A DNA stretch of 64,000 bases from Trematomus loennbergii (taxonomy: Eukaryota > Chordata > Actinopteri > Perciformes > Nototheniidae): NCBI GenBank assembly GCA_012861695.1, contig JAAOOA010000060.1, forward strand, positions 16,074,472-16,138,471. The letters are read 5' to 3'. Positions 14,011-45,740 of the stretch are shown in pieces. Under the pieces are notes generated by a model, which was not told the DNA's origin, made no database searches, and saw nothing but the letters and a program-made list of their open reading frames with translations. The first letter of the stretch is position 1; each line of letters starts with the position of its first letter. A program made the translations under genes and the position numbers.

Positions 14011-14020
14011 CTGAAAGAGA

Positions 14021-19452: not shown

Positions 19453-19456
19453 TTAC

Positions 19457-20792: not shown

Positions 20793-20824
20793 CCTTTTAT
20801 AAGGTGTGGGTGTAAACACATTGG
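20793..20824 (-). promoter_or_regulatory. Candidate gal3st1 promoter, copy B
   Basis: TATAAAAGG (20793-20801) with CCAAT (20820-20824) on the minus strand, as in copy A. Each duplicate therefore contains its own core-promoter candidate. Confidence 0.5.
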
Positions 20825-24014: not shown

Positions 24015-24301
24015 CTAAAAGATTTTAGCTGTTTAGTCAAATGTAAAATAAGGTATGGTCCGACTTGTAAACATTATGTTTCATAAAAAACTAAAACAAA
24101 ACTCGTCTTAAAAACATACTGCTGGATAATTAAGAGTTTCACAAATGTATCTGAAGCAGGCAGAAGCTATTCTCTATTTAAAAAAGATAACATAAAGACA
24201 GCATATCATTACATTAAATTGGGTTTAATTTGAATTAAAAGAAACGTGTGACAAACAACATTCATCTGAAGTAATGAATCTGTGTTCTGAGCAGATGATC
24301 A
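24015..24301 (-). repeat. ~285-bp repeat, inverted partner of 30264-30546
   Basis: Reads AAAGATTTTAGCTGT... to ...GAGCAGATGATC and is the near-identical reverse complement of 30267-30541. Similarity stops sharply at both ends. It has no inverted termini of its own and no coding frame. Confidence 0.85.
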
Positions 24302-24739: not shown

Positions 24740-24966
24740 CAGAACAGAGTGGGCGAGCTGACCAATCAGAGCACAGTGGGCTCATAGGGAGGAGGGGGTG
24801 CAGGAGCTCCAACAAGCCGTTTAGGACAGAGAGTGAATACACATACTATACAGAGATGCTGTATGAGAAACAAATGTGATTTTGGAACATTGAACAATGT
24901 AAATCTATTCTAGTAGACCTCAACAATGGAATTATGATCAGTAGAAATGACCATGTCATGGGACCT
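24740..24966. mobile_element. TTAA MITE fragment (CATGTCATGGGACCT end)
   Basis: The right end CCATGTCATGGGACCT followed by TTAA (24967-24970) and the interior (GACCAATCAGAGCACA, CAACAAGCCGTTTAGGACAG) match the right half of 27891-28666. The left half is absent. Confidence 0.8.
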
Positions 24967-24970
24967 TTAA

Positions 24971-26443
24971 AGTGACGTAAACACATGAGTTGCAGAGGCA
25001 AAAAAGAGCTGTTGGATGAACCCCTCCCAGTTGAGCATACAATGCAAGATAACACATACACATGTTCATGCTCCCTCATGCACAGCCCTCATGTATGGGA
25101 TGCACATGAATTATTCATGATCCACATGTAGGTTTTGTGAAAGCCATTTTTATGATTTCACAGATTCTTATATGCAAAGTCGTGTTTGGTTAGCCACAAT
25201 TCTATTTCATTTTCTGCTGCAATATTTTCATTTTCAATGCAGCATAACTCTGATACAGAAAAACCTAGACGACAGAATGTCACACAATATAATATCTTAT
25301 CTACTCGGCTCCATATCAGCCAAAGCTACACTGAAGTTTTATGAGAGTAACAACACAGTTATTCCTCACGACCTCATCTCAGCTTTCTACAGCGCTCTAC
25401 TGTACTGTATGCCTGCAGCTGTTGGTTTGCAAGACACCAGAGCACATGAGATACTGAGGCAAATATTGGTTTGCTGGAACCCTCAGGGCACTTGTTTGTC
25501 CATAAAACACAGCTTACACTGCACAAGCTGTTTGTAGACATTTGATGGAAATTGAATGCGTTTTGTGGAGCTGTAAACAAATCCTGGCTGTAATACACAG
25601 GAGGTCACTGAGGTGCTGAAACTCCATATAAAAGGAAGATGAGGATTTGGCACCGGAAAACTTTGGTTGGTGAAAGGAAGAACACCCAACAAAAGAGAAC
25701 TGCGGCCAGACAGCAAGCTACCAACTTCTCCCTTCCAACTTACTGCAATGAATTGCATTTTTAACTTCTCATCCCCCTCTTACTGGAACCTATCACAAAT
25801 TCGTTTTCAACTCATCAAAAAAAGAGTAGCGCTCCCCAGGTTGCAGAACGACTGTAGTAATGTTATCTGTGGAAACACTACCTGGCAAAGGGGACCGGTT
25901 GACGGAGAAGGCCAAAGAGGAAGTGAAGGAAATTATTTCCGGTTAAATATGTTTAAGAAGCTAAATTATTATTATTATTTAAACTTTATTTTAGCACTGA
26001 CACCAGGGTTCCTGTAGCTCTTTGTTTGTTAGCCGGGCTGATAGCGTTAGCCTTGTTGCTAACAATAGGCCTATATGTATATATGCAGAATCGTTTAAAT
26101 TGCTAATCTTGCACACACAAAGATCAGCTAGGAACTATATTATTACTGTTGCAAATATTGTTGGGAAACAAATGCAGCGGCCCTGTGTTGTTAGTAGCTT
26201 CAAGGAAAACAGAAAACAATCCCACAGCAGCACTAGCAATAATTTAATGAATAACACTCGAAAGTGCTCGGGGGGGAAGTTGGTGGATCTGCTGTGCTGG
26301 CCAGCCTGTCTCAACAGCCTCTCTCTGGTAATTCCAAGAGATATCAAGACCTTTATATATAATCAAGTGTGTTTAACTAGACAAGGGCTTCTGTTTTGAA
26401 ACTAGTTCCGAGAATTCCGCCCTGCCCCTAGCTCCAAAGATCC
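24971..26443. other. Non-coding DNA, no gene established
   Basis: Several moderately long frames (for example the plus-strand frame at 25172-25537) have no recognisable domain or splice partner. The stretch 25830-26440 has a repeat-like composition with ATT runs, but I could not define ends. Confidence 0.3.
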
Positions 26444-27317: not shown

Positions 27318-27326
27318 GACTAGAAC
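27318..27326. repeat. Target-site duplication, left (GACTAGAAC)
   Basis: Nine bases repeated exactly at 41747-41755, directly outside the inverted termini AACACATTCTCACTCCCACC and GGTGGGAGTGAGAATGTGTT. Confidence 0.9.
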
Positions 27327-27890
27327 AACACATTCTCACTCCCACCTCGTCCTATAGTGACGTTATGTCAAGGTCCCCCCCTTCCAACGCAAGGGGGGGC
27401 CCCTTAGCGTCCAGATTCAACTTTCGGGGATGTCCATAGACTTCTATAGAGCTCCATAAACGTATGTGGTGGACGACTTGAGATTGCGAGCGAATGCTCC
27501 CTGCGGACCGCAGCCCGTTCTCAGCTGAAGCGTATGGTGCGAGACGTCATTGCAACACATTATGCTCTTTATATATTGTTTATAAAAAATGACAAAATTG
27601 TAATTTTCATAAAATAATAGGCTTATAGGCATTTTATTCTCTTATGTGAAGTTGAGATGATGCATGCTGGGTAATGAATTATTTACGTACGTAATATAGC
27701 CAGAAAATGTTCTAAAATTGTGTCTGATTTTTCAATTCATCACATTTAACATGGCATTACGTAGTATAACTTTTGTACAGATGATCAGTGTTCCTGTTTG
27801 GCCGGCTTTTATAGAAATGAATTTAATCATAGCGTCTGTAAATAAAGTTTTCGGCGCGCACGTGTGACGTCATCTATGCGACGATGTTAA

Positions 27891-28666
27891 AGGGCCCATG
27901 TCATGCTTTTCTGCTTATTACCCGTCCCCTTGTGTGTTATGAAGGTTTTTATGCATGTAAACGGTCTGCAGAGTCAAAAACCCTCAAAGTACACCCTGTA
28001 GCGAGTAAAACTCTAACACAGAAAAGACCTGTCTATGCTGCCCCAAAACGCCTCGTTGGAGATTTCTCATTTTCCATTGTTTGCTTCCTGGGTTCTGTGA
28101 CGTGTGAACACCCAAATCAACAACAAATGACCGGATTGGCCCAAATGGACCAATCCGCAGAGCACCTCACACACCAGGATCCCTTGGCTAACTAACAGGG
28201 AGTCCCCATTGACTTGCAGAGCTCCCTGAATGCTGGTAATAGAGGAGTTGGGATTGCGGAGAAATGCTCTCCGCAGACCCATTCTTACAGCGTTATAAAC
28301 CTTTTTCTTACTCAATATCAAGCCACACTGATTGTTTTTACTTTGGCTGTGAGTGTTTGTGTGTGCTCAGGATGAGTTTCGCTTGTTCTCGCTGTATCGC
28401 CGACCCGGAAACCTGTCCGCTCCTCGCAGCAGCAGCCTCGCAACGTCCCGACCAATCAGAGCACACTGGGCTCACAGGGAGGGGGGGGGCAGGAGTTCCA
28501 ACAAGCCGTTTAGGACAGAGAGTGAATACCCGGTGAATACACATACTATACAGAGATGCTGTATGAGAAACCAATGTGATTTTGGAAAATTGCACAATTT
28601 AAATCTATTCTAGTAGACCTCAACAATGGAAATATGATCAGTAGAAATGGCCATGACATGGGACCT
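27891..28666. mobile_element. TTAA MITE in left arm of KDZ transposon
   Basis: Inverted ends AGGGCCCATGTCATG and CATGACATGGGACCT between TTAA (27887-27890, 28667-28670). The right arm retains the unoccupied site (TTTAAAGTCCATTGC on the minus strand near 41216), which fixes the insertion and its TTAA duplication. Confidence 0.92.
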
Positions 28667-28694
28667 TTAAAGCCCATTGCGATTTCCACACTAG

Positions 28695-30120
28695 GTAAGT
28701 AACACGGTGAACATCCTGACTGTGACTGAAATCAAGAAAATCATTCAATATTCAGCCTTATGTCTGACCAATAAGTCATTGTTGGAACATTTGCAAGTGC
28801 AGGGTAGTCGTCTTTTTTGCCTGTAAATCATTTTAAGATGTTCAAAAAAGTATAACTTACTAATGTGCTGAATGCTAGCTAGCTGCTACTAGCTATTAGC
28901 TAGCACAGAAGGTGTTGCCTTTGAAGTTCAACTTTCTTTAAAAGGTGGCAAACGACTGACACCTGTTATTGCATGAAATAATATTTGTGATTGTTTATGA
29001 ATGTAGTTATTATGTGTCAGTTATGTGTTTTTAATGGGTTAGAGTTGATTAAATGAATGACACAACAATAAAAAAATTAAAATAATCATAAAAGTTCAGA
29101 AATATTCCTTCATGTCCATGACAGGTGTCCCACTAATGCCAAGCCCGTAAATATTAGGTGACCTTTATTTGTCAGATATGATCTTACAGGTTACAGTCAT
29201 AGGGAATTGTATGGTTGCCATTAAAAATGTATTTCCAGTTACCTATTGGCGCGTTTCCACTACAGCGCGGAGCACGGTTTAAGAGGGCTGTGACGTCAGC
29301 GGTCCGTTTTTGGTTGCGTTTCCACTTGGCCTAGTACCGGCCGGCGGGTCCTAATTCACAGTTTTTCTGGCCTCATAAAATCGTGGGTCTAGGGCCAGAG
29401 ACAACGAGGCTGAGTCGGGCTGAGTATGCTAAACTAGAGAGAGAATCGCTGGCAAGGGGGCTACAACTACAACAAGATGGACATATTTGACCGTGAGTTA
29501 ATTGTAATACACGTTTCAAAATGATGCCGAAGTAACAACATACTGATACCGGTTAGTAAAAACCATGAATTAATGCTTTGACAAGTCTGCAGACAGACGG
29601 CAGGCGAAAAACCTTTTAAAATGCGTGTTTTCTAAATGGAGATTGGCTAAGCTAACGCAGTATATGCTCCGACCGTCCACACTCACAACAACAGCCTATA
29701 CAGACATAAATAAAGCAGCGACTGTATTCGCCATGACACAGGCAGTCTGTGGTTTGTACTTGTTTAACTTTTGTCTAGTTTCTGAACATATATAAGGAGC
29801 TGTGAGCTCTGAGTGCTAACAGCTAACGGCTGTGTTTTTTTCTGGGGTTCTCATTGAAGATGACGTCACGGCTCCGCCTACACTGCGTTACTATAGATAC
29901 TACCCCAGTTCCTAAACTGTAATGGAAATGCGCCATAAAGTGAGCCAGTCCTAACGAGGCCTAGCCAGGCCGTGTAGTGGAAATGCGCCATAAGTTACCA
30001 TAGCTCAAAACTGTCTTTTTGTAATCATGCTATGTTGATGTTGTTAATTCTTTGACAAAGATAACGCCACTGTAAAATGTAAGGTGTTCAATTCCTAATA
30101 GTTTTTTCTTCTCTCAACAG
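28695..30120 (+). other. Leader intron in left arm
   Basis: Donor CTAG|GTAAGT (28695) and acceptor TTCTCTCAACAG (30120). The right arm keeps matching signals on the minus strand: TCTG|GTAAGA (41185) and TTTCCACACAG (39712). Retention in both arms suggests that each gene begins with a non-coding exon in the arm. It contains the MITE 29246-29990. No transcript evidence. Confidence 0.5.
29246..29990. mobile_element. TA-flanked MITE in left arm of KDZ transposon
   Basis: Ends TTGGCGCGTTTCCACTACA and TGTAGTGGAAATGCGCCA, TA at 29244-29245 and 29991-29992. Reverse-oriented copy of the 22850-23614 family, with the same core. No counterpart in the right arm, so it arrived after the transposon. Confidence 0.85.
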
Positions 30121-30263
30121 ATTCTTCTGAGTTCTCAGTGAAAGCCAAACACCATTATAAGCTGTAATAGCATCAATCCAAAGGCACTTTTAAGAGCCAC
30201 GTCCCCGTTGTTTCCCTGTCCTTGCGCTTGTGAAATTGTCCTATCTCTGTTGCTGTCTGTGTA

Positions 30264-30546
30264 CAGATCATCTGCTCAGAACACAGATTCATTACTTCAG
30301 ATGAATGTTGTTTGTCACACATTTATTTTAATTCAAATTAAACCCAATTTAATGTAATGATATGCTGTCTTTATGTTATCTTTTTGAAATAGAGAATAGC
30401 TTCTGCCTGCTTCAGATACATTTGTGAAACTCTTAATTATCCAGCAGTATGTTTTTAAGACGAGTTTTGTTTTAGTTTTTTATGAAACATAATGTTTACA
30501 AGTCGGACCATACCTTATTTTACATTTGACAGCTAAAATCTTTTTG
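30264..30546 (+). mobile_element. 283-bp insertion with 9-bp flanking repeat
   Basis: Flanked by GTCTGTGTA at 30255-30263 and 30547-30555. The right arm has GTCTGTGTA once (39579-39587, reversed). The inserted sequence is the inverted partner of 24015-24301. It has no clear inverted termini and no coding capacity. The flanks are GT/CT-rich, so the 9-bp match is suggestive rather than proof of transposition. Confidence 0.65.
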
Positions 30547-30625
30547 GTCTGTGTATGTGTCTTATCTGTCCATCTTTCTGTTGTTAGTACCTTTCTGTGT
30601 TTTTGTTTTTCTATACTTGTTTGTC

Positions 30626-30826
30626 ATGACTCGACCTGAGTTCAGGCCCTGCCCAGCTTACCAGACTCCAAATCAGGCGAGCAGGAAAACGTGCAGTGCC
30701 TTCTACGGAAGCCTGTCAAACGAAACCAAACTGAAAGAAAAAGCGGCATCACTGGATAGTGAATGGGGCCAAGGTGTAGTGAAAAACAGAAATGTTGGAC
30801 GTATACTTGATTCTGCCCATATTGCA
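30626..30826 (+). pseudogene. Plus-strand gene of KDZ transposon, first coding exon
   Basis: ATG at 30626 and 67 open codons to a GTAAGT donor (30827). The predicted segment is basic and polar (SLSNETKLKEKAASLDSEWG, KNRNVGRILDSAHIA) and belongs to no family I recognise. It lies just inside the left arm, in the position mirrored by exon 1 of the transposase on the other side. An earlier in-frame ATG exists at 30551, but its hydrophobic Phe/Leu run looks like UTR. Confidence 0.6.
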
Positions 30827-31289
30827 GTAAGTACAAATATTTCATAAGTTTCTGTCAATTGAAGTGAAACTCCCTTTTTTAACATACTAAAAATATTTGT
30901 ACATTATGATCAGGCCTTTGAAAATATAGTCTTATTGTCAGATGTTACATCTTACAGTGATCGTATTTACCTCTTTGACCCATCTGTCTGATTGTGATGT
31001 TTAAATGTTGTAAATATTTTGTTTTAGTCCCACAGTGTCCCACACAGTGTTTTTGGTACAAAAAAGAGCAACAATGCGTATTGTTCTTTGTAAAATAATG
31101 ATTTTGTTGTAATGAAGGCAATGGCAGAAACAGCAGGTGTACCTTAGCCCTTGCATGCAAATAACAATTAGTCTTACACAATGCAAGATACCTTCATGTT
31201 GCTTGTATAATAATCCAAAAGAAACAGTATTAATGGGTTTAAGGTAGCGGGTCAAACAAATGTGTGTGAACTGCTTTTGTTCATTTCAG

Positions 31290-31452
31290 GTGCGGAAACT
31301 TGAGGCTCTACAAGCCAATTCTATTTTATGGCAAGCCAAAAAGGGCTTCAAATAGGTGGGCTGCTGATATAATAACCCATCTGCCCCCACTCCTACCACC
31401 AAAACCTTATTGGACAAAATGCGGAGGGCTTATGAATTCCTCTTGACAAAGG
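31290..31452 (+). pseudogene. Plus-strand gene, second exon (broken)
   Basis: Follows TTCATTTCAG and continues the previous exon in phase (VRKLEALQANSILWQAKKGF), then meets TAG at 31353-31355. Further along, another frame reads TKTLLDKMRRAYEFLLTKG up to the donor GTAAGA (31453), so at least one stop and one frameshift have accumulated. Function not recognised. Confidence 0.55.
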
Positions 31453-31571
31453 GTAAGAGTATTTTCTTTTTCAAAAGATTGTGTTAAGTACATATATCAA
31501 TAAAAAACCCACGTAAATTTGACTACCTTTTTTTTATTTTTACAAAAACTGTAAGTAAACCTGCATTACAG

Positions 31572-32307
31572 AGAGCTCCACTGCCCATCAACCTGCATCT
31601 GAAACTCCCACAGCCGAGCAACCACAGACCCTTAGCAGAGAGCAGCCAGAGACCCTCAGTGCAGAGTAGCAAGGGACCCTCAGTGCAGAGCAGCAAGATA
31701 CCCTCAGTACAGAGCAGCAAGAGAGACCAGCTCCCAAGCAACAACAGACACTCAGTGCAGAGCAGCAAGAGAGACCAGCTCCCGAGCAACAACATCAGAC
31801 CCTCAGTGCAGAGCAGCAAGAGAGACCAGCTCCCGAGCAACAACATCAGACCCTCAGTGCAGAGCAGCAAGAGAGACCAGCTCCCGAGCAACAACATCAG
31901 ACCCTCAGTGCAGAGCAGCAAGAGAGACCAGCTCCCGATCAACAACATCAGACCCTCAGTGCAGAGCAGCAAGAGACCCTCAGTACAGAGCAGCAAGAGA
32001 GACCAGCTCCCGAGCAACAACATCAGACCCTCAGTGCAGAGCAGCAAGAGAGACCAGCTCCCGAGCAACAACATCAGACCCTCAGTGCAGAGCAGCAAGA
32101 GAGACCAGCTCCCGAGCAACAACATCAGGCCCTCAGTGCAGAGCAGCAAGAGACTAATTGAATTCTCAATCTGGTGCCATGTTCCACTCTCTCTCCTCTT
32201 CTTCCTCTTTAACAAATACACAAACACAATCCTGTATTCTTCCTCCTCATGCCATCTCCCAGTCTTCTCAGAAAATAGCCAAAAAAAGAAGAAGATGAAA
32301 ACAGATG
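31572..32307 (+). pseudogene. Plus-strand gene, repeat exon (17-residue Gln/Glu/Pro repeat)
   Basis: Opens after ATTACAG (31571) and ends at GTAAGT (32308). In the phase set by the previous exon it reads SSTAHQPASETPTAEQPQTL, then units of ERPAPEQQHQTLSAEQQ (51 bp each, about seven, some partial), then a Ser-rich tract and a basic KIAKKRRR that would suit a nuclear protein. A TAG (CAG to TAG) interrupts it near 31669, and stops follow the repeat. A second frame is also open over 31659-32318 but does not fit the upstream phase. Not recognised; low-complexity linker-like composition. Confidence 0.55.
31675..32152. repeat. 51-bp coding minisatellite
   Basis: Units of AGCAAGAGAGACCAGCTCCC followed by GAGCAACAACATCAGACCCTCAGTGCAGAGC, with shorter derivatives at both sides. 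The unit is a multiple of three, so the repeat keeps frame within the exon. Confidence 0.9.
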
Positions 32308-32499
32308 GTAAGTTTTGACTTCACACACTACTAATACATTTGATACCAGGCACATTTAACTTAAATCATTATTGGGTAGCTAAGCCAGGTTTCATTCAGG
32401 TAACCAGACCAGTGCACAGCATGTTATTCTTAATATATATTTTTTGCTGCGTTTTGGTGGCTTATGAAAGGGTCATGGTTGATATTGATGCCTGGCTAA

Positions 32500-32856
32500 C
32501 CTAAGAGGTTTTGTGAAGCCTGCCCACGACATTTAGCTGGATTACATGAAATAGGGACAAACATCTTTGACCCAAATAGACAAGTCTGCAGATCCTTTTA
32601 CAATGTTTGATTTACTTCACAATGATATAGTTAATCTCATGGGGACAGGGTTTTATTCTCAAGAGAGACCTGATGAAAACACAACAGCTATATGGAATAC
32701 ATTTTCAGATAGACTAGACATGTATACAAAGTCAAATAGAACATAACTCATAAAAGCAAAAAGAGGTGTATTAGACAAAGGAGAATTAAATGAAGTGATC
32801 ATAATAAATTGGCTACAAGAGCGACCTCCACGGACACACTCACATGAAGTGGAATA
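32500..32856 (+). pseudogene. Unrecognised coding-like remnant
   Basis: Two abutting frames read like protein. 32500-32583 reads PKRFCEACPRHLAGLHEIGT and NIFDPNRQ. From 32584 in another frame come FDLLHNDIVNLMGTGFYSQE, RPDENTTAIWNTFSDRLDMY and, after a TAA, KRGVLDKGELNEVIIINWLQ. I cannot place them in a family. They lie between exons of the plus-strand gene and are probably part of it or of an older insertion. Confidence 0.4.
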
Positions 32857-33445
32857 ACGGATAACTCTTTGTATATTTAAGGTTGCCACAAATGTAGAAG
32901 ACAGAAGGTCTTCCAGTTTGACCAAATAACTGGGAGAAGGATCAATAAGGTAAGTTGCAGAAGCCATACTTTTCCCTTTTTTTCATTTGGTTGCTTGCCT
33001 GACTCAGTAACTCATTCAGGCCTTTAAAGATACAACATTTTTTTTCTTCAAATACAATTATTGTTTCCTGTGTGTGTGTTTGTGTGTGTGTATATTAGGG
33101 GAAAGCAGAATGTAAAGTATCCTGGTTGCCTTGCTCTATGTGGTAAGACGTAGTTAATATTTCTTTCATACACTATTACATTTTTTCCACTTTTAACCCT
33201 TTCAGAGTGTTATTTCCCTTCTCTCGTTAATCTCTACTGTTTAAAGTAGTAACCAAAGTATTTAAGAAAGTAGTCAAATGATCACCCTTTCATTAAGGTA
33301 TCATACACAAGTAATACAAAGAAAGGTATATGTTAGCTTCACCTCCTGTCTGAAGTTGGATGGTAGTTAAGGGTGCTCCTTAAAATCTTTTGGAAAAAGC
33401 TCTATTGCCTGAGGTAAATACGATAGTGTTGTCTTTTATTCCATG

Positions 33446-33548
33446 AAGACTTGCAGTGAGGATAAGAGCAATGATGATAATAAAACCCATGGTCACAGTT
33501 CAGACCATGCAGCGAGGAAGCAGAGGAGAGCAGTATTGAACTGCGATG
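33446..33548 (+). pseudogene. Plus-strand gene, further exon
   Basis: Encodes a polar, basic segment (CSEDKSNDDNKTHGHSSDHA, ARKQRRAVLNCDG) ending at a GTAAGA donor (33549). Acceptor ambiguous (ATGAAG or CTTGCAG). No later exon found before the convergent transposase ends at 34280. Confidence 0.4.
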
Positions 33549-33559
33549 GTAAGAGTCGC

Positions 33560-34262
33560 TCTCTATATCCCTGTGTGTTTATAACGGCCAGGTCTCCTTG
33601 GAACATAACACCGGAAACCTATTAAAACCAGGTTACGTTTTTTAACACTACAATTCCCAGTAGAGACTGCCATAGAACATGATAGATCCCTTATTGTGAA
33701 AGTAATGTTTTAACTAACAGCTATAATAGCTATATTGACACTAATTATGTGTACACATACAATATACTAACAAAGAAATAAATTAAAGACCTGTACACAG
33801 ATATATATATATATTTATTTATTCACAAACATACATACACAACATTGATGTGTCTGATGTAAACATTACAAATATTGCAAAGGATATTTATTTAGAAAGA
33901 TCATACAAGGAGCAGATGAGTTTTCATAGTATATATATATATATCTATATCTATATCTATATATGATATCTATATGTGTATAAACAGTGTGGAGGATTTA
34001 TAGGGACAGTGATATCAGATATCAAATGATATATCAGAGTGATCTGTATCGCTACCAGAGGGGGAGCAGCTGGACCAGGTTGTGTCCACAGTGTTCCTCA
34101 GATAATTGTGAATGAACGATGACAACGGTATAGGTTGGTTGCCTATTTTAGATCCTGGGAAATAGTGAATATCAGAAGCCAAGGAGTGGTTTCGATTCTT
34201 AGTGCAAGTAGGGCATAAATGGGAACTGATAGTCTTGCAGAGTTAAGTTAATTGTCCAGTAT
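33560..34262. other. AT-rich region between the convergent genes
   Basis: (AT)n and ATCT runs at 33801-33816 and 33932-33973. No coding signal. The two genes of the transposon meet here tail to tail. Confidence 0.5.
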
Positions 34263-34279
34263 GAGAAAGGTGTCAGTTT

Positions 34280-34479
34280 CTAATCAATTTCCGAATCAGA
34301 GTCACTGTCGAAATCCTCAGATGAAGCACTCTGCAAGAAGTTGATTTTTCTGCTCCAGACAAAACTTGCAGGTAACACGCTCTGGTGTGCGTCTTCATCT
34401 CTCTGATGTTCTGTCTCTTCCTGAAGACAATGCTTTGGACCCCTTTCAACCCCTCTTCGCTCAGGCTCCAAGGCAGGTC
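34280..34479 (-). pseudogene. KDZ transposase last exon
   Basis: Reads WSLSEEGLKGVQSIVFRKRQ in the expected frame. The natural acidic end (SASSEDFDSDSDSEID, stop 34280-34282) lies in a different frame, so a frameshift separates the halves. Confidence 0.7.
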
Positions 34480-34569
34480 TTAAATAGAAAACAATAACAT
34501 AGAACGTCTGTTAGTAATACAGTCATTATTGTATTGTTTGTTAATTGGATTTAAAATATGAATACATAC

Positions 34570-34746
34570 TTTGTATCGGCTCACTGGGCAGAAGGCAGGA
34601 CAGCTCTTTCAGGGAATCAGCACGGGCTTTGAGAGCTTTCCAATGGTGGTCCATCTCTGTGACCACAATCTTCTTCTCCTCCTGAAGTCTCCTTATTGCC
34701 ATGATGATGTCAAATGCCTTTATTTTCGTCTTCAGATCCACAGAGT
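34570..34746 (-). pseudogene. KDZ transposase exon 13
   Basis: VDLKTKIKAFDIIMAIRRLQ and EMDHHWKALKARADSLKELS, a coiled-coil segment typical of the C-terminal part of KDZ proteins. Donor GTATGT (34569). Confidence 0.75.
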
Positions 34747-34973
34747 CTGGATTGCATTTATGAGAAAGACTTAAGTCATGTGTACGTCAAATAAAAATTA
34801 ATAGAGTCCTATGGGGTTACAGATTGACATTTGATACATTATGGGTTATGTGTCAGATTTGTTGCAAGTAGTCAACAGACTAATGTACATAGTATACCAC
34901 TGTGTAGTTGCTGCCATGGCCAAGCTGTCTCGCCAGACAGAATGGTTTCCAAGCACAGAGTTTCTGTACTTAC

Positions 34974-35169
34974 AACCATTCGGTTGTAACTTTCCACAAC
35001 GTCAGGATCCCCTTCTCTGTCCTGATCTTGCGTCGGATCCTGGCACGACCTTTGCTGCCGGCTGTATCTTTATAACGACGCTGGGATCGTCTCTTGATAC
35101 TAGCCACCAGCACCTCAATTCTGCTGGCCAAGGCATCAGCATCATTTGAGGTGGTTGTTGTTTTTGTGG
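34974..35169 (-). pseudogene. KDZ transposase exon 12
   Basis: Reads TKTTTTSNDADALASRIEVL, VASIKRRSQRRYKDTAGSKG, RARIRRKIRTEKGIL, a basic helix. The frame must shift by one to join VVESYNRMV before the donor GTAAGT (34973). Confidence 0.7.
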
Positions 35170-35327
35170 CTAAGAAATAAATTAGTGAGTTAATAAGATT
35201 TAATATTAGAAAGTTTCTGAAATACCTTGACTTCAACCAAACTGGTCTAGGTACTGTATAGAGCTGCAATCAAAATTGCAGAAGGGCTATACTTTTTCTA
35301 AAGTCATATGTTAATAATTTCCTCAAC

Positions 35328-35520
35328 ACATTACATGTTACTTATTAGACGATTTTATCCAAAGCGACTTATATACTCAATACTGTGGACAATCCCCACA
35401 GCAGCAATTTGGGGTGAAGTGTCTCAGGGACACAACGACATGCTGAATGCAGTGGGGTTTGAACCTGCGCTCCCGTGATCCAAACACCAATGCACTAATC
35501 CACTGCGCCACAGCCTCCCT
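35328..35520 (-). repeat. tRNA-derived SINE (full-length) in KDZ intron
   Basis: On the minus strand: GGAGGCTGTGGCGCAGTGG head with A-box-like and B-box-like (GGTTCAAACCCC) promoter sequences, a body with CACTTCACCCCAAATTGC, and a tail GGATAAAATCGTCTAATAAG like many fish SINEs. Its 5' end starts three bases after the GTAA of the exon 11 donor. Other copies: 59661-59782 and 60352-60540. Confidence 0.85.
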
Positions 35521-35523
35521 TAC

Positions 35524-35638
35524 CTTCTGCCCACTCCTTGACATCATTGACCCAGTCTTCCAATTTGCTCTCTGTCACTGCCATTTGCACTTTCATGGTC
35601 TCCAGGTTCTGCAACTGGTTTTGCAGAGCTTTGGTGGT
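35524..35638 (-). pseudogene. KDZ transposase exon 11, coiled coil
   Basis: TTKALQNQLQNLETMKVQMA and SKLEDWVNDVKEWAE. Donor GTAAGG at 35523 is directly followed by the 5' end of a SINE. Confidence 0.75.
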
Positions 35639-35742
35639 CTACAATGACAAACAATCAGAGCCAGCAAGAACAATATATCAGCCACAGCTTCAAATAATGC
35701 CAAAACATATAGCATCTTAAAAGACATTGCTGATGTTCTTAT

Positions 35743-35824
35743 CGGTGACACAGTGAGGTTGCCACATTTTTGAATTTTTGCTGGTTCCAGCGCATGGCCA
35801 TGAGACTAAGCATGTCTGTGCGTC
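35743..35824 (-). pseudogene. KDZ transposase exon 10, damaged donor
   Basis: Reads GRTDMLSLMAMRWNQQKFKN and VATSLCHR. The exon runs into CACCG|ATAAGA, where a GTAAGA donor would be expected, so a G-to-A change probably destroyed the 5' splice site. The phase to exon 11 cannot be confirmed. Confidence 0.7.
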
Positions 35825-35911
35825 CTGCAAACACATACAATATGATTTTTACATTATTCCAATTACCTATTGTGCTTAGGATGTAATAAGAGCATTATGC
35901 CGTCATCTCAC

Positions 35912-36029
35912 CTGCTTTTGTCATGTGTTTGGTTGTTACAGCAATCCTAGAGAGAAAGGCATTGCACTGTTCCACCTCCTCTCCGAGTGTTAAGCCAGCC
36001 CCATCCTGATACGCCCCACTCCATTTTAC
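35912..36029 (-). pseudogene. KDZ transposase exon 9, catalytic Glu
   Basis: Open: VKWSGAYQDGAGLTLGEEVE then QCNAFLSRIAVTTKHMTKA. The GEEVEQ glutamate is the probable third catalytic residue. Acceptor TTAACCAG, donor GTGAGA (35911). Confidence 0.9.
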
Positions 36030-36125
36030 CTGGTTAAAAATAAATATATATACTTTTCAAATCAACGAAAAAAAGGTTAGGTGTTCAAAAAGAAAAAATT
36101 GTATCAATTTGTAATGTTTCCTTAC

Positions 36126-36470
36126 CTCGCATTTGAAATCATGGGCTTTGGCATGAAATACCGAAAGGAAGGGTTTCATGTTAAGTAGGTGCTGGAGCTC
36201 TGGACAGCTCTTTGCTACTTTTTGGAGGTCAGGCCAATATTTGCAAGTCACATCCATGCAAAAGAAAGTGATTTGCCTACTCGACAGCTTTTCTTGCAAG
36301 AACAAGGGATAAGTAAAAATGTCTCCCCTGTACATATTCAATGCACAGAGAAGCACTCCATGCCGACACATCGCAAGCTCCAGTCCCTCTTCGTCTACCT
36401 TGCTGGTGGATCTTTGGGAAGTCTCTCTGGCTGCGGACCACTCCCCTCCACAAACACCTCTTCCAGAGAC
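36126..36470 (-). pseudogene. KDZ transposase exon 8, second catalytic motif
   Basis: 345 nt, open throughout. Key segments DEEGLELAMCRHGVLLCALN, MYRGDIFTYPLFLQEKL, FFCMDVTCKYWPDL and MKPFLSVFHAKAHDFKCE. The Asp in CMDVTCKYWP is the probable second catalytic residue. This is the strongest single stretch for the family assignment. Confidence 0.92.
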
Positions 36471-36593
36471 CTAAAATATTGAAAATGGTTGATAAAAGTC
36501 CAAAGAATAATCTTATCAACATATTAAATAGAAGGTAACCTGTATATATTTAAGAAAATGTATGAATATAATTATTATAGTCTGTCATTTTAC

Positions 36594-36687
36594 ATGTTTG
36601 GTTGTCCTGTGGATATAGTCCACAAATCGTGTCACTTCTTCATCCTTGGCAATGAAGACGCCTTCAAATGTGGCCTTTTCCTCTGAT
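36594..36687 (-). pseudogene. KDZ transposase exon 7
   Basis: 94 nt, reads SEEKATFEGVFIAKDEEVTR and FVDYIHRTTKH, completing an Arg codon from exon 6. Donor GTAAAA at 36593. Confidence 0.75.
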
Positions 36688-36801
36688 CTAAATACAACAT
36701 AGGTTTTTGTCAGTATTTTAAGGTGTCAGGATAGTTGCTGCATATTACAGAGTTTTGTTTGTTATGAGTTAAACACGGAGATTAGAAACATTGCCGAGTA
36801 C

Positions 36802-36980
36802 CTAGCTGCATGCTTGAAGCGGTAATGCTTACGGTTTCCATCCACTGAAACCGCAAGCATATCCGGGGTGCACGCAGGACAGATGAAGCTCTCCTCTTTG
36901 CAGATGTTTTCCACCTCAAATCGGACAGCCTCCCACTCAAAAACACTTTTCTGAAAGCTGTCTGCTGAGACCTTCCCAGA
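36802..36980 (-). pseudogene. KDZ transposase exon 6, first catalytic motif
   Basis: Fully open. Begins SGKVSADSFQKSVFEWEAV and carries CPACTPDMLAVSVDGNRKHY, with the probable first catalytic Asp in SVDGN. Donor GTACTC at 36801. Confidence 0.85.
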
Positions 36981-37099
36981 CTATTTCCAAAAAAGAAATT
37001 AACCATTAATTCAGTGAAAAAAGTATGCAACTAACATCTTTTAAATCCACAAAACCAACAGATGATCAATACTGTAGGATACATAAATGTAGTACTCAC

Positions 37100-37330
37100 A
37101 CGGCCAAAGCGGAAAGTTCTTTGATGCAGCATTCTTAAAAATGCCTGGCAGGAAAGTCCTGGTGCGGCCATCTTCATCTCTTCAAATGAATAAAACACAT
37201 CTGTTTCATAAATTAGAGAAGGGAAGTGTAGCAGGCCAGTAGCCACTCTGGATAAGATCGTCCAATCCAGCAGCCCAAGTGGCATCACATGTGTGACAAC
37301 TCAACTCAGGCATGCTGAGATCGTGTCTTC
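37100..37330 (-). pseudogene. KDZ transposase exon 5, Cys-rich and pre-catalytic segment
   Basis: Reads GRHDLSMPELSCHTCDATW and LIQSGYWPAT, then needs a one-base shift to continue SLIYETDVFYSFEEMK, APGLSCQAFLRMLHQRTFRF. These segments are characteristic of KDZ proteins. Donor GTGAGT at 37099. Confidence 0.85.
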
Positions 37331-37457
37331 CTAAAAAAACGGAGCAAATAGTTGTATGTAAAATTCACACATGGCAACACTTGTGTGTTGTATAATTGTT
37401 AAATATACATATTTTAGTAGTTTTCAAACAAGACAAAACAAATATTAACATCTTTAC

Positions 37458-37559
37458 CATTAATTGTGACCACAGCAACAACCTTTCCTGGGTTGACCCT
37501 TAAGGACACTGTCGAGCAGCCACAGATTTTCTCAGGCATTTCTACAGGCATAAGCCGAA
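37458..37559 (-). pseudogene. KDZ transposase exon 4
   Basis: 102 nt in phase with exon 3 (RLMPVEMPEKICGCSTVSLR, VNPGKVVAVVTIN). Contains a Cys-Gly-Cys. Acceptor TTTTTTCAG, donor GTAAAG (37457). Intact. Confidence 0.75.
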
Positions 37560-37861
37560 CTGAAAAAGATCATACATGTGAATGAAGACCATTTGTATCG
37601 ATTCGGAAATATAACATTGTGATGTGAACATTTATATCAAACCAATTGAAGAAACTAAGGTTGCAGTTTAGACAATTTAAAAAAGCCTCAATTGCCATGA
37701 GGTACATTGCTAAAACAGTACTGAGGGACTGACTAATATTGAGTATACACAAGATTAAAAATAAAATAAAAGGAAATATGAGTCAAAGGGGCATTGTTTG
37801 AAATGTCTAATGACCAATGATCTCCATAAGCTCAATAATGAAATTCGTTTTGGACACTTAC

Positions 37862-38736
37862 AACAATGAGAAAGGGCCTTGTCAGCAACAAAAGTTGTTG
37901 GAGGTTATGGCTATAAGAATCCGGCTGTCATGGCATCTCTGTTGTGAAGTACATGTCTAGTGTGCATGCTAACATCACATTCAGCACAGAGGAAAGGGCG
38001 TGGTCAGCAGTCACGACAATGGACAGCAGCTGGATTGCTCCCACACTGTTGGCAGATGCGGTTTGCAACATTTTCTTGTGCTGCTGTGCTGTTAATCAGA
38101 CGGGGCCTCTCAGTCTTCCACCTCTCTAAAAATAGACTTTTTCTTGTGCCCCAGTCTAAGGAAGCCATAGGAGGAGCTGTTGGAGCTGATGCTTCTAGCT
38201 AGGGCTGTGCGATTATGGCCAAAATCATAATCACGATTATTTGGGTCAATAATTGATATCACGATTATTAAATACGATTATTCATTGGCTTTGAAAAAAT
38301 CAATTTATTGAACAAATACAAATAATAATTTGAACAGTATCTTTTTAACTGTTGATTACCCTGAACGTATAATTCAACTGAAAAACCAATACAAAAATAA
38401 ATAAAATAAATTATACATTTAAATAATATCAAATAATAAATACCAATAAACAAGATCAACAAATATTTTGGAGCACACTTCCCAAAGCTACTAAACATAT
38501 ATAAATATGATAAATACAAATAAATGAGACCAAAATTAATTAGATCAAATATGTTGCAGTGCACTGTCACAACCTAGCAAAGCAAAATAATTGTTTTTTT
38601 CGATTATGTTGTTTTCGTAATTGTGGCAGGCCAAAATTGTAATTGCGATTAAAATACGATTAATTGCACAGCCCTACTTCTAGCTCATCACTTGAGGCAT
38701 CGCTTAGTGATAGCTGGAGATCTTGTAGAAAACACT
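37862..38736 (-). pseudogene. KDZ transposase exon 3, Cys/His cluster, split by a hAT MITE
   Basis: Continues in phase from exon 2, is interrupted by the MITE 38200-38676 and resumes after it. It reads WGTRKSLFLERWKTERPRL, then C-x2-C-x8-C-x2-C-x6-C-x2-C followed by spaced His residues, the Cys cluster that accompanies KDZ transposases. Arg or similar after CRDC is now TGA (38004-38006). Two further stops (37911, 37905) sit in the following PPTTFV segment and would be Gln codons before C-to-T change. Donor GTAAGT at 37861. Confidence 0.8.
38200..38676. mobile_element. hAT MITE inside KDZ exon 3
   Basis: Ends TAGGGCTGTGCGATTAT and ATTAATTGCACAGCCCTA, flanked by the 8-bp duplication CTTCTAGC (38192-38199, 38677-38684). 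477 bp, AT-rich, no gene. It disrupts the transposase exon and is younger than the host element. Confidence 0.95.
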
Positions 38737-38972
38737 CTGTTAAAAGATAAGGAATGAAACAAAAACATATTGTTTTATACTACATCAAAGTTTACTGTAT
38801 GGAGTAGCTGTGGCTTGGAAATATTTAACAGCTATGTTTATAATTATGTTAAATTGTTTTTAAAATTCAAACATGGAATTAACATTTCCAAATCAGTGCC
38901 AGACACATCTCACAGAAACAAGTACAAACATATGGAGATACTGATTTAGGCTTAGAGAGACACAATACATAC

Positions 38973-39053
38973 CAACAGTCTCTGGAGCAAAGACCATCTC
39001 ACAGTCAGTGTCAGGAGCATCAACACGAGGAGCTTTCCTCCGACTGGGACCAG
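38973..39053 (-). pseudogene. KDZ transposase exon 2
   Basis: Acceptor TTTTGTACAG, donor GTATGT (38972). Reads AGPSRRKAPRVDAPDTDCEM in phase with exon 1. Basic then acidic linker. Confidence 0.7.
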
Positions 39054-39257
39054 CTGTACAAAACAAAAACCTTTACCATAAATACTATTTAAATGTCTTC
39101 ATTACCCCTTAGATATAATTAGATGTAGTCAAATAATCTGGTCAAGTGCTATAATCATGTCAGATTACCTTTCAAATGTAAAAATGTTTTGCCGTTGGTT
39201 TTGGTTTGATTGTTTTCCCTATACATCAATTAATAAATCTCTCAAAGATTTGGTTAC

Positions 39258-39438
39258 CTTCGACGTCTCTCTTTTTCCATTTTACAATTGGTTCAGGTGT
39301 CTTCACTGGTGCTGCTGCCTCCAGCTTAGAAATCAAGTTATCAAGACTTTGGAGCTCATTATTGAGTTCTTCTTGTTCTTCCTGTTCAACAAGATCATCT
39401 AGGCTTTTAAAGACATCTTGGGGCTCTGAATCACTCAT
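39258..39438 (-). pseudogene. KDZ transposase exon 1
   Basis: ATG 39438-39436 in context ATCACCATGA, 60 codons plus 1 nt, donor GAAG|GTAACC at 39257. Acidic, Leu/Glu-rich (VEQEEQEELNNELQSLDNLI), probably a coiled coil. Its 5' UTR runs through a CT-rich tract into the right arm of the transposon. Confidence 0.75.
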
Positions 39439-39578
39439 GGTGATGGCCAGAAAGAGAAACAGACAGACAGAAACACTCACACAGACAGATAAGACAAAAA
39501 CAGGGGTAAGCACAGATAGGGAAAAAGCGAGAGAGGGAAAGTGAGTAAACAAAAGTGAGAGAGAGGGACAGAGAGAGA

Positions 39579-41746
39579 TACACAGACAGCAACACAGGTA
39601 GGGACAAGGCACACTGAAAAGGACGGTTTAACAAAACAAATATGGCTCTTAAAAGTGCCGTTGGGTGGGTGATTGAATCGCAGATCACAGGGGTATATAA
39701 ATGGGAAAGACCTGTGTGGAAAGAAGAGAAACACTATTTCGAATTAGCCAACGTATATTTTACACTAGTGTTATATGTTGTGTTCCACCTGGATGTGTAG
39801 TTTCATCAATTGTCATTTATTTATTTTTATCTTAAATGTATGCATGCCTCTTAATTAAAGTGTTGCTATTTACTTTTGCTGTAACAATGTAAATGTCCCC
39901 TCTGTGGAACAAGTAAAGGTCAAGTATGATTATATTTGACAAATAAAAGTAACACTATATTTGAAGGGCTGTGCATAAGATACACATCTGTCATAAACAT
40001 GTAGGAATAATAATTTGGACTGCTCTTATTAGGTGTCATTCAGTCAATTCACTCATACCCTATTAAAATGTAAAATTCTACGAGCTAAAACTAATGGCTA
40101 GTAGCTAATGGCTAGTAGCCGCACATAGTCCAGTAAGTTGTATTTTAATGTCTTAAAGGGATTCACAAACTCACAAAACGACTACCCTGCACTTCTTAAA
40201 GGTCCCATGTCATGGCCATTTTACTGATCATAATTCCATTGTTGAGGTCTACTAAAATAGATTTATACTGTGCAATTTTCCAAACTCACATTGGTTTCTC
40301 TAACATCATCTCTGTAAAGTATGTGTATTCACCGGTATTCACTCTCTGTCCTAAACGGCTTGTTGGAGCTCCTGCCCCCCCCCCCCCCTCCCTGTGAGCC
40401 CAGTGTGCTCTGATTGGTCGGGACGTTGAGAGGCTCGTTGCTGCGATCTGCTGCGAGGAGCAGACAGGCTTCCGCGTCGGCGATACAGCGAGAACAAGCG
40501 AAACTCATCCTGAGCACACACAAACACTCACAGCCGAAGTAAAAACAATAAGTGTGGCTTGATATTGAGTAAGAAAAAGATTTATAATGCTGTGAGCATG
40601 GGTCTGCGGAGAGCATTTCTCCGCGATCCCAACTTAGCAGCCCGAAAAACGTTTACCCATTTAAACAGTCGTGGTATACCTTGTTTGTTTTAAACATCAT
40701 AAATACACAAACAACAATGAATACTTACAGGTTGTGTACCCGAATCTCCCGCTGGTCCAAACAAAGTAGGAACAGCATCGTTCTTCAGTGCCCTACGCTG
40801 TACATATCCGGCATGAATTGCTGAAAGGTTTGGGAAGCTTTGTTTCGTGAAAGGCTGGCAGAGGGTGTGGCCTCTGGGTATTCCCATGTCAGAGTACCCA
40901 GGAAGAAAATGAGAAATCTCCAACGAGGCGTTTTGGGGCAGCATAGACTGTGTTAGAGTTTTACTCGCTACAGGGTGTACTTTGAGGGTTTGTGACTCTG
41001 CAGACCGTTTACATGCATACAAACCTTCATAACACACAAGGGGACGGGTAATAATCGGAAAAGCATGACATGGGACCTTTAAGGTGCTTACAATACTTGC
41101 TGACTGGACTTAATAACAGTTTTGCTGTATATTTAATGGTTTTCGTCGTCTCTGATTATACACATGTAATTAATGCAGCTCTTACCAGACGGGGATTCAG
41201 CAATGGACTTTAAATGCGACGCACCACATTACGTCACACGCTTGATGCGCCACCGTGATTGAAAATACTTTATTTAAAAAAAAAAACAAGGACAAAATAC
41301 TTTGAGCCGCCCTATAGCCAAAGCCCGAGACACCGTTTAAAGCATAATAAAGACAATATATAGAGAGCATAATGTTTTTAATGCAACGCAGTCTCGCAAC
41401 GTATGCGTCCATGTAAATAATTCATTACCCAGCATGCATCATCTCAACTTCACAAAAGAGAAAAAAATGCTATAAGCCTATTATTGTTGCCTATCTGTTG
41501 CTGAGGCCTATCACAGAGTATGAAAATTACAATTTTGTCATTTTTTATAAACAATATATAAAGAGCATAATGTGTTGCAATGACGTCTCGCACCATACGC
41601 TTCAGCTGAGAACGGGCCGCGGTCCGCGGGGAGCATTCGCTCGCGATCTCAAGTCGTCCACCACATACGTTTATGGAGCTCTATAGAAGTCTATGGACAT
41701 CCCCGAAAGTTGAAACTGGACGCTAAGGTGGGAGTGAGAATGTGTT
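39579..41746 (-). repeat. Right inverted arm of the KDZ transposon
   Basis: Reverse-complement counterpart of 27327-30263, with its own TTAA MITE at 40200-41078. The arm keeps leader splice signals (donor 41185, acceptor 39712) reading towards the transposase. A local partial repeat of the arm sequence (ACATTATGCTCTCTATATATTGTC) lies at about 41352-41400. Confidence 0.88.
40200..41078. mobile_element. TTAA MITE in right arm of KDZ transposon
   Basis: Ends AGGTCCCATGTCATGG and GCATGACATGGGACCT between TTAA (40196-40199, 41079-41082). Same family as 27891-28666 in the opposite orientation, but inserted at a different point of the arm. The left arm has ACATTTGCAAGTGCAGGG at the corresponding empty place (28782-28799). 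Confidence 0.92.
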
Positions 41747-41755
41747 GACTAGAAC
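41747..41755. repeat. Target-site duplication, right (GACTAGAAC)
   Basis: Exact repeat of 27318-27326. Confidence 0.9.
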
Positions 41756-42847
41756 GGCATGACTAATAGTTTTTTCCCTTATTTGTAGGCACTACCAATT
41801 ACACCTCTCTTTTTCACTAGTTCAATGTAGCCTATATTCTGTTTTGTAATACTTTGTTTACATGGAGCAGTTGTATGCAAGAAGATGGTAAAGAAACACA
41901 CAAAAAAAGGTTTTGAAAATGTTATTCTTGGCAACACTAACTCCTTTTTTCTCTTTCTGTTTGTTCTTTTTTTAAATGGGCTGTTGGCATGGGCAGAGAG
42001 AAACAGCCCAGCAGTTTTTGGTTGAAGGTGCAGCAGTTGTGATGACAGAACATGGGCCAATGTTTACTCATCTTGGGAATGAAAGACTCCTGTGACCTTG
42101 CAGAGGATTTAGAAAAGCGTGTCCAAACACACACACATATCCGACAAATTAAGCCTTTCCCACTAAATTCCTTCCCTTCCTTACTCTCTTCCTCTGACAC
42201 TTGCTCCCTGATAAGTTGCCTCCGTTTGTTCTCTCTCAGCAAACTTTTCTCCATTCAATTAGGCCTGTCCTTCTCTCAAAGAAATATTTTACTTTGCAAC
42301 AAATGACACTTCACGTAGGGGGAATTTGAGGGCTTAAATGTCCAGAGGAACATGCTGGGTTTTTCATGTGAACCAGAAGATGAACTTGTTTGTTGTTTCA
42401 ATGAATGGAGGGTCGAGTGGGTAGATGGATGGATGGATGGAGGGATGGGTATACTGTATATTATAAAACGGACAAGTCAAATCAAGCAATCTGATTGGTT
42501 CTTAGCCGTGATATACTGAGCGTATACCACGGGTAGAATTGTAAGTTACTTTTCACAACAAGTCAGTATCCATCCACGTCTGAGAAAAACAGTATACAGT
42601 TGGGCTGAAAAGCATTTCAAACTGGAACAAGAAAGCAGCGGAGAAGTAACGGGGCAGAAACCCTCCTTTTTACGTAGCGGTCCAGACATAGACATCAAAT
42701 GGCAAAAACATATTCAGTGTGCAGTTCCTTTGGCATTAGGGCAGGGATATTTAGATACTTTCCAAGGTTTGACATAATGAATTGTGCTACTTTTAAAGCA
42801 AGCAACGATGTTTTCAAATCTGTAATCAAAAAGGTCCGCAAAAACAT
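41756..42847. other. Non-coding DNA
   Basis: No gene seen. A (GATG)n run lies at 42421-42447. The stretch 42515-42540 (CCGTGATATACTGAGCGTATACCACGG) is an imperfect palindrome that recurs at 45256-45283, so the two may be the ends of an older element split by the TTAA insertion that follows. Confidence 0.4.
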
Positions 42848-42851
42848 TTAA

Positions 42852-44746
42852 AGGGCCCATGTCATGGCCATTTCCACTGATCATAATTACATTGTTGAGG
42901 TATACTAAAATAGATTTATACTGTGCAATTTTCCAAACTCACATTGGTTTCGCATACAGCATCTCTGTCAAGCATGTGTATTCAGCAGTATTCACTTTCT
43001 CCACTAAACGACTCGTTGGAGCTCTAGCCCCCCCCTCCCTGTGAGCCTAGTGTGCTCCGATTGGTCAGCTCGGCCACTCGTTCTGATTAGTCAACCACCA
43101 GAGAGGCTGCGCCCATGTCTAACAGTGCTTTTCCCGGCTGCTCTCAGCGTAACATCAGTCTTATCATGGCGTCGGCACAGCCATATATTTTATATACATA
43201 TATATTTGTAACTGTTGTTATAGAAGAGTGTGACGGCCCCAGGGCCTTTGTCTTACGATGGGTTGGAGCTGAAGAGGCTAATCAGCACGATCACGGACAC
43301 CTCCGGACACTACGGCCCCAGTCTCTCTCCAAAGCGGCTGCAGGAAGACTAACTGCGATCCTCTCAACCACCTATATCTGCATTTACGACAATAAATGTG
43401 CCGTGGTTTTGTAAACTCGTGTATGTCTCCTTGTCTTTGTGGCCTACGAGCCGCTCATAACAAAGAGTAAGTTATTTTTACCCGTTATAAACTACTACTG
43501 TTTGATGATAAATCAAATCATGGTTTGCTATATATGAATTCAGGGAAGAAAGGATAGGCCTACTAAGTATTTCCATTAAACTTTATTTTTAGAAATGTAC
43601 AAAATGAACATAAATATACATATATACACGGTATATCATCCATTCCTCCTCCTCGCATCTTGCTGCGCACAGCCGGTGCTGCGGTGCCTTTTAGCACGAC
43701 GCCTCAGTAGTAGTAGAAGTGCCTTTTAGCACGTCATGGATTGTCCGCCAGGATCTGGCTGGACGAAATCAAATGCAAATCACAAAATATTAGAGAAACT
43801 AGTTGTTTTAGATTCGTTAGTAGTAGTTGTGTAATGAACAGCTTGCCTGCTAATATGCTAACCTAGCTTTGTTTACCTTGGTAGCTAACACGATATGAAC
43901 GTTAGCTTGGAGGAAAGGCAACTATAATGCAGTGTAATAAAACTACTATGAACAAAAGCTAGTGGTTCATATTAGGCTAGCAATAACGTGTTTATAATTG
44001 TAATCGCATACGGGTATTCTGCTACCATACAATGTAACTTGCATGAATACATTGTTTTGCGCTAGCATACAGCTAGCCTCGTTAGCTACATGCAGTATAT
44101 GTACGGTCACAATGTACGGTAAATCACAGTACAGTATACTGTATGAGTATTCCGTGTGTGTGAATGCAGACATTCTCCTGCTATGAGATACATGTATGCA
44201 AGGCCATCTGCTGATATTAGAGTTGATATATGGAAACTCTAGCAACTTAGTTAGCACAGTTAGCACTGTGTCAAAGGCTTAGCAGTCCAACACAGTTTAC
44301 ACATTTAAACAGTCTTGTTTGATAAATACACAAATAACAATGCAAACTTACAGGTTGTATACCCAGATCTTCCCCTGCTCCAAACGGTCCAAACAAGCTG
44401 TGCATATCCGGCCTCAAACTGGGCAATGTTTTGGAAGCTTTCGTCTGTGAAATGCCGGTTCTTCGAACCTCTGGAGGAGGAACGCCGCTGCTGGTGTGGC
44501 CATAGCTCTTCGGGATTGGTCCATTTCGTTCCGGGTACCGCATGACATCATGCGGTACCCGGAAGAATCAAATGGGCAGTGACGTATCTCCAACGAGGCG
44601 TTTTGGGGAGGTATTTTCTGTGTTAGAGTTTTACTCGCTACAGGGTGTACTTTGAGGGTTTTGACTCTGCACACCGTTTACATGCATAAAAACCTTCATA
44701 ACACACAAGGGGACGGGTAATAACCGGAAAAGCATGACATGGAGCT
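42852..44746. mobile_element. Long (1.9-kb) TTAA MITE copy
   Basis: Starts AGGGCCCATGTCATGG after TTAA (42848-42851) and ends GCATGACATGGAGCT before TTAA (44747-44750). The end regions match 27891-28666 and 40200-41078. The extra interior (about 43100-44270) is absent from those and is either a separate insertion or the part the shorter copies lost. I found no transposase in it. It contains a perfect hairpin, CGGGTACCGCATGA facing TCATGCGGTACCCG (44534-44562). Confidence 0.8.
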
Positions 44747-44750
44747 TTAA

Positions 44751-45740
44751 GATTAACTTCGACCTCCGGGGGGGTCTTACTATGGAGGAGTGGATTGAGG
44801 AGTGCCTATCTCCAGAACAAAAAGCACCTAAACGACGACATGTAGAGCTACGTGAAGGGCAGGTAGACCAACTGGAAAGGTACCACCATTCAAAAGCTTT
44901 CTGATGCGGGTCTTGAAACAAAGCAGAGAAATTATGACCGTTAGTGGCCACAGGTGTGAAAGCTCTCTCCAGAGCTACTGGAAGCCGAATCTCGGGGACC
45001 GGAGAAAGTGGAGCAATATTCTCGCCACGCCAAGCAACAACCTAGAACAACCTCAACCTATAACCACGTAAGCCATTCTACTGATGCTGGACAGTTTTTC
45101 AGTGGGTGCACAATAAACGGCAACATACACATTAATGTAAATAAATAGCCAAATAATGGATCAACGCTCTCTGTCTAATATGTTCGCCAGCTGTTGTTAG
45201 TGTTGTTGCATAGCAACCACCTTGCTTCGCGTCGGGCTGAACCACGCCCCTTAGCTGTGATATAATGAGCATATACCACGGCCTGTCGTGAGCTATTGCT
45301 TAATTCTATTTTAAAGGTACACATGTTTATGCAGCAAAAGGATATTTATTGTGTTGACAAAAGCTCAGAAAATGCTTTTAGTAATAGCACAACCTTTTAG
45401 CTATTAATACATCCCTTTTTTCTAGCCTTAAAATGTAATGTAATGAAGGATTTCCATTTCATTTTCTCTTCATTATTAATTTGGCTAAAGAATGAGAGAT
45501 GTGGGTATAGCAATTTAAAGGTCTAGACACAAAGCCCAGCTTGTTTCCATATTTCTTGTAGAATTAATCATTATTTTCAGTCAAAAAGTAAGTTTCTTAT
45601 TCAGAAAGTCCCAAAGAAATTAGAGCAAATGTAAAACATAATAATGAGAAGATAAATCACATCATCATTGACTTTCAAACCTCATTTGGGAGGATGTAAA
45701 ATATTCATAGAATCCCAACAGGTAATCAGAGTTGAAATCA
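44751..45740. other. Non-coding DNA with a small open frame
   Basis: A 40-codon plus-strand frame (44782-44904) reads MEEWIEECLSPEQKAPKRRH then VELREGQVDQLERYHHSKAF. It looks helical and may be a transposon-protein relic; not recognised. The remainder is AT-rich. Confidence 0.3.

Follow-up and report, generated by a model that had tools for sequence, protein, structure and literature searches.

A probable degenerate KDZ superfamily transposon with long inverted repeats and a 7-bp target site duplication in an Antarctic notothenioid fish

The closest described systems differ in their ends and in the length of the target site duplications that they make. Zisupton is reported with 8-bp duplications, one Dileera family also with an 8-bp duplication, and Kyakuja with 7-bp duplications and CA..TG ends but lacking inverted repeats (PMC12730594). 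Zisupton genes are described as multi-exon (PMC9297572). The Cryptococcus elements KDZ1-3 are given as about 9-11 kb long, with inverted repeats of 139-241 bp, a CxC1 domain, and duplications of 8 bp for KDZ1 and of 4-8 bp for KDZ2 and KDZ3 (PMC12810828). The giant KDZ elements of the brown alga Ectocarpus reach about 30 kb, and the giant families often have nested insertions and a transposase that is predicted to be dead (PMC12477816). Literature searches that combined notothenioid with Zisupton, or that used 19 letters of the terminus described below, found no report.

The locus described here comes from Trematomus loennbergii, an Antarctic notothenioid fish. It lies in a window of 64,000 nucleotides, the whole stretch of DNA that was analysed. 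The element is 14,422 bp long (27326-41747), has the ends CAACACATT..AATGTGTTG and carries on its minus strand a broken multi-exon CxC3-KDZ transposase gene (34280-39438). A stop-to-stop frame in this gene (36057-36470, minus strand) contains a portion of PF18758, the KDZ catalytic domain (E=7.3e-18), with a score of 65.5 bits that lies above the cut-off of 26.6 for that domain. Both the KDZ domain and the CxC3 domain (PF18804) are found in the homologues P0002 and P0021. The window exons of the CxC3 region align to P0002 by tblastn with frameshifts, the domain itself being scored in the homologues rather than in these exons alone. The gene is disrupted by a hAT-like insert with an 8-bp duplication, by in-frame stops and by frameshifts. 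Judged from these lesions, the window copy is dead and an intact enzyme could not be made from it.

A homologue search with the exon pieces as query, in which X stood at the lesions, gave 239 proteins at E <=1e-3. All named proteins among the 120 that were listed are from fish, and the best full-length match among them is P0002 (71% over 97%). A tree was built from 46 of the 120 listed proteins and the window; it is a fish-only tree, fungal and algal KDZ proteins being absent. The window falls in a nine-row clade with eight notothenioid proteins (support 100/99) within the teleost set, and three further notothenioid proteins, P0020, P0070 and P0118, stand outside this clade. A KDZ protein of Xiphophorus hellerii, with 65% identity over 72% of the query, belongs to the 26-row tree group of the window. 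On the catalytic domain and the fish tree, we class the element as a member of the KDZ superfamily and as a modest variant within it.

The element is flanked on both sides by ACTAGAA (left copy 27319-27325, right copy 41748-41754). The 9-bp sequence GACTAGAAC occurs only twice in the window, at 27318 and 41747. From the window alone the duplication can be read as 7, 8 or 9 bp, since the C before AACACATT is complementary to the G after AATGTGTT. The preliminary description had taken it as 9 bp and proposed a distinct lineage within the superfamily. The terminal sequence AACACATTCTCACTCCCACC is found in the window at 27327 (plus strand) and at 41727-41746 (minus strand). With up to 3 mismatches its 17-base core has just these two terminal sites in the window, and shuffled sequences gave a mean of 0.25 sites, with at least two sites in 3 of 100 shuffles.

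We searched the 1.21-Gb assembly, in which the window lies in contig C60, with the terminus at up to 2 mismatches. This gave 874 matches (434 forward and 440 reverse); the reversed control pattern gave 5 and 3. One hundred of the 874 places were listed, and these include the window and 20 other pairs of neighbouring plus and minus matches, all of which were fetched. A C stands before AACACATT in all 20 pairs and a G after AATGTGTT in 19, and such constant bases therefore belong to the element, not to the duplication. Directly outside the ends so defined, a 7-bp direct repeat is exact in 17/20 pairs and has one mismatch in L029; no duplication was found outside the ends of the remaining two, L021 and L023. 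When flanks were deliberately mismatched as a control (21 flanks including the window), 2 of 420 combinations agreed within one mismatch, which the identical flanks of L013 and L014 would account for. Because the flanks of L013 and L014 are the same and those of L016 and L017 are mirrored, 15 distinct duplications remain. Only one of them, in L025, extends to 9 bp, where chance would give about 1 in 16.

From the 7-bp rule of the other pairs it follows that the element is delimited as given above, with ACTAGAA as its duplication. The 9-bp match of the window is a 7-bp duplication with two chance bases. Readings of 8 bp were rejected as well, as they work only where the next base matches, with G before the duplication in 3/15 and C after it in 3/15 distinct sites. 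The idea of a separate KDZ lineage with 9-bp duplications has in its favour the exact GACTAGAAC at both ends of the window element and the 9-bp match in L025. It is nevertheless very improbable, and refuted for the fetched copies, given the constant bases at the inner edges, the chance-level frequency of 9-bp matches and a transposase that nests among teleost CxC3-KDZ proteins. We therefore correct the proposed 9 bp to 7 bp. The other copies end one base away, at each end, from the termini first proposed, and a distinct lineage finds no support within the fish-only tree.

The flanks of L010-L029 have a T before the 7-bp duplication in 10/15 distinct sites and an A after it in 9/15, which hints at T-N7-A as a weak palindromic target preference. 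Within the first 700 bases of L020, at its left end, terminal sequence like that of the window element is joined to sequence of the short copies, linking the two families.

The element ends in long inverted repeats. The left outer repeat (27326-27686, plus strand) lies 3' of the gene, the right one (41413-41747, minus strand) 5' of it, and the two are 97.7% identical (296/303 aligned columns). About 57 bp of the left end are absent from the right end, and about 32 bp of the right end are absent from the left. The former are mostly kept in a partial copy in contig C66 and in the aligned short copies, and the latter are present in copies in C66, C363 and C5. As they are kept in other copies, the two pieces look like losses from the right and left ends of the window copy, respectively. 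Further inward, 27691-27800 and 41300-41410 gave no alignment, 882 of 1000 shuffles scoring equally high. The left inner arm (28795-29187, plus strand) pairs with the right inner arm (39924-40195, minus strand) over two blocks that are 72% and 76% identical; the alignment of 28795-29240 with 39700-40198 scores 108, and none of 1000 shuffles reaches this score (maximum 68). Inside the outer ends, the identity per block is about 54-78%, a range that refers to the alignable parts in a flank-joined alignment. The arms measure about 0.9-1.1 kb without the nested inserts.

While the outer ends of the window copy are 97.7% alike, they are about 93% identical to those of C66 and about 88% to those of C363 and C5. 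The variant CCCACC at both ends of the window element represents the sole exact terminus matches among the 100 places listed, where exact ones are shown first. The other 98 listed places have CCCAAC (96) or CCCAGC (2), and 774 places stand outside that list. Since the outer ends are far more alike than the inner arms, gene conversion between them is the simplest reading, and they were probably homogenised in this way.

Such high identity over 303 aligned columns could also be taken as the mark of an assembly artefact or of a recent inverted duplication, and the mirror-image flanks of L023 suggest that mirror copies may occur in the assembly. The arms, however, differ by indels, by separate insertions and, in the inner part, strongly in sequence, and the same right arm is present in unlinked copies, which makes an artefactual origin of the arms hardly credible.

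The strongest similarity between the inner parts of the arms has a different source. The anchors at 27887-28670 and 40196-41082 are 87-91% identical, and both are TTAA-bounded repeats with AGG..CCT-type ends. The left one occupies 27887-28666 (780 bp), with its second TTAA at 28667-28670, and the right one 40200-41082 (883 bp), with its second TTAA at 40196-40199. Beyond the element, relatives occur near 24760-24972 and 42847-44751. The left insert sits at GATG-TTAA-AGCCC, and the homologous place in the right arm is uninterrupted. Gapped local alignment matches each flank of the left insert to this uninterrupted stretch, with 0 and 1 of 1000 shuffles reaching the scores; plain blastn of the short flanks gave no match. 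The right insert lies about 125 bp deeper than the left one, and the left arm, like the right arms of C363 and C5 (L052 and L053), runs through that place without interruption. The right arm of C5 (L053) is uninterrupted at both insert places. The two inserts are thus separate insertions of one TTAA-bounded repeat, mirrored by chance, and following the arms inward through these anchors was rejected. The case serves as a worked example of how near-mirrored insertions in both arms can mimic longer and cleaner inverted repeats. A piece of the inserts (28190-28343, about 157 bp, and 40536-40634, about 100 bp) is about 90% identical to the short-copy inverted repeat at roughly positions 100-255.

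Other repeats are nested in the element. A hAT-like short element (38200-38676) interrupts a transposase exon between two copies of the 8-bp duplication CTTCTAGC (38192-38199 and 38677-38684); the label hAT-like is taken from the duplication and the short ends rather than from a family search. There are also a tRNA-derived SINE fragment (35404-35519, minus strand) and a repeat at 29244-30547, with approximate edges, that is about 96% identical to 22894-24300 in the window. A 51-nt minisatellite (31614-32204, or 31488-32320 when delimited more widely) has several open frames, on both strands, the longest being 276 aa (plus) and 265 aa (minus), and a Pfam search of these two frames gave no match. 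After its insertion the window copy acquired five or more nested repeats as well as lesions that break the reading frame. Subtraction of the nested repeats leaves about 10.9 kb, a figure that depends on the approximate edges of 29244-30547. This agrees with the earlier estimate of about 11 kb without later insertions, and the view of the locus as one large KDZ transposon with inverted ends, a target duplication and later insertions inside it has likewise held. As for the proposed kilobase arms, their length (about 0.9-1.1 kb) and the 97.7% identity of the outer parts stand, but the strong inner anchors are the two TTAA-bounded insertions.

Elsewhere in the window, Gal3ST genes lie in a tandem duplication of about 5.6 kb (9493-12389 with 15432-18353, and 12771-15430 with 18350-21016; 98%). 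The window Gal3ST protein matches that of Chaenocephalus aceratus at 98%, and at 85% the proteins that rank next among those with a name, from Sander vitreus and Cottoperca gobio. An exact 149-bp tandem duplicate is present at 48514-48805.

Whether the enzyme and the ends belong together was examined in other copies. The genome has at least 139 exon matches, a count that comes from the 79 of 801 candidates scored. One copy in C66 (L050 and L034) contains, on one strand and in order, the exact 24-base terminus, the outer arm, a partial middle arm, the DNA adjacent to the gene on its upstream side and the first exons. The inner arm is missing from this truncated copy, which also carries an insertion and shows no match to the element past the first exons except repeats. 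Its far end was not found in the 9 kb downstream, where a lone terminus is the start of another copy. Copies in C363 and C5, which are counted as one because they are identical over 239 compared outer-arm columns, have the outer, middle and inner arm together with the first exon, and C1 has a partial middle arm, the inner arm and the first exon. In these three contigs the region 39461-40195 is 85-91% identical and the first exon 78-94%. In the DNA fetched, C5 showed no terminus on either flank, and C363 none on its 5' flank. Apart from the window copy, no full-length element that combines a transposase with both ends was recovered.

The joint presence of terminus, outer arm and first exons in one piece of DNA in C66 suggests that enzyme and ends probably belong together. 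We accordingly weighed the possibility that the ends and arms come from another superfamily with 7-bp duplications, into which a KDZ gene was inserted. It would fit the 20 fetched copies (0.17-6.4 kb), which have the ends and gave no match to four KDZ proteins by tblastn. It would also fit the reported duplication length of Zisupton, which is not 7 bp, and the fact that C66, the one other copy with terminus and KDZ exons together, is rearranged. Yet the inner-arm region still stands beside the first exon in C363, C5 and C1, and C66 ties the terminus to the same exons, so the join is common to several copies. A repeat search of 25-44 kb revealed no further set of inverted termini enclosing the KDZ gene within the element, and fungal Kyakuja, itself a KDZ group, is described with 7-bp duplications and CA..TG ends (PMC12730594). 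We consider the insertion of a KDZ gene into a foreign element unlikely, and the KDZ transposase is probably linked to these ends.

A KDZ-derived group with near-identical members and shared stops was also seen at dozens of places (contigs C70 and C183, L038-L049 and L055-L058), with roughly 64% identity. When two copies of this high-copy group were compared, neither clear inverted ends nor a duplication emerged. Viral contigs were rejected as a source of copies, as they gave one 17-base match, taken as chance, and no encoded relative.

Taken together, we read the locus, with a probability of about 0.82, as a degenerate KDZ superfamily transposon of the cut-and-paste type, with a CxC3-KDZ enzyme, CA..TG ends, a 7-bp duplication and long inverted repeats. 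The long inverted ends were most likely the recognition sites of the CxC3-KDZ transposase. The element would then have been cut out at its CA..TG ends and joined to a 7-bp staggered target, which would yield the 7-bp duplication. Transposase-less copies with the same ends and 7-bp duplication were presumably mobilised in trans by copies with an intact transposase, and arm-to-arm gene conversion probably homogenised the outer ends of the window copy.

More tentative, and a little short of even odds, is the wider proposal of a notothenioid KDZ family that has CA..TG ends and near-kilobase self-homogenising inverted repeats, makes 7-bp duplications, and has hundreds of transposase-less relatives that it drives in trans. 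A 7-bp duplication would be off-type for fish KDZ elements, since Zisupton is reported with 8-bp duplications. If the proposal is true, duplication length in KDZ elements varies by family instead of distinguishing the K, D and Z branches; the present data suggest that it is a weak marker of them. The exact ends of a fish KDZ family are now defined, and its terminus has 874 matches in a single genome.

Set against the available descriptions, the element resembles fish Zisupton in its KDZ transposase, multi-exon gene and inverted ends, and differs from it in having 7 bp where 8 bp are reported, the comparison being one of descriptions. With fungal Kyakuja it shares the 7-bp duplication and the CA..TG ends, whereas its long inverted repeats have no counterpart in the Kyakuja account; this comparison too is one of descriptions. 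Its net scale and inverted repeats are like those of Cryptococcus KDZ1-3 (about 9-11 kb), which in contrast have CxC1 instead of CxC3, duplications of 4-8 bp and shorter repeats. It is large like the giant KDZ elements of Ectocarpus, where giant families often have nested insertions and a transposase predicted to be dead, although those reach about 30 kb and reside in a brown alga.
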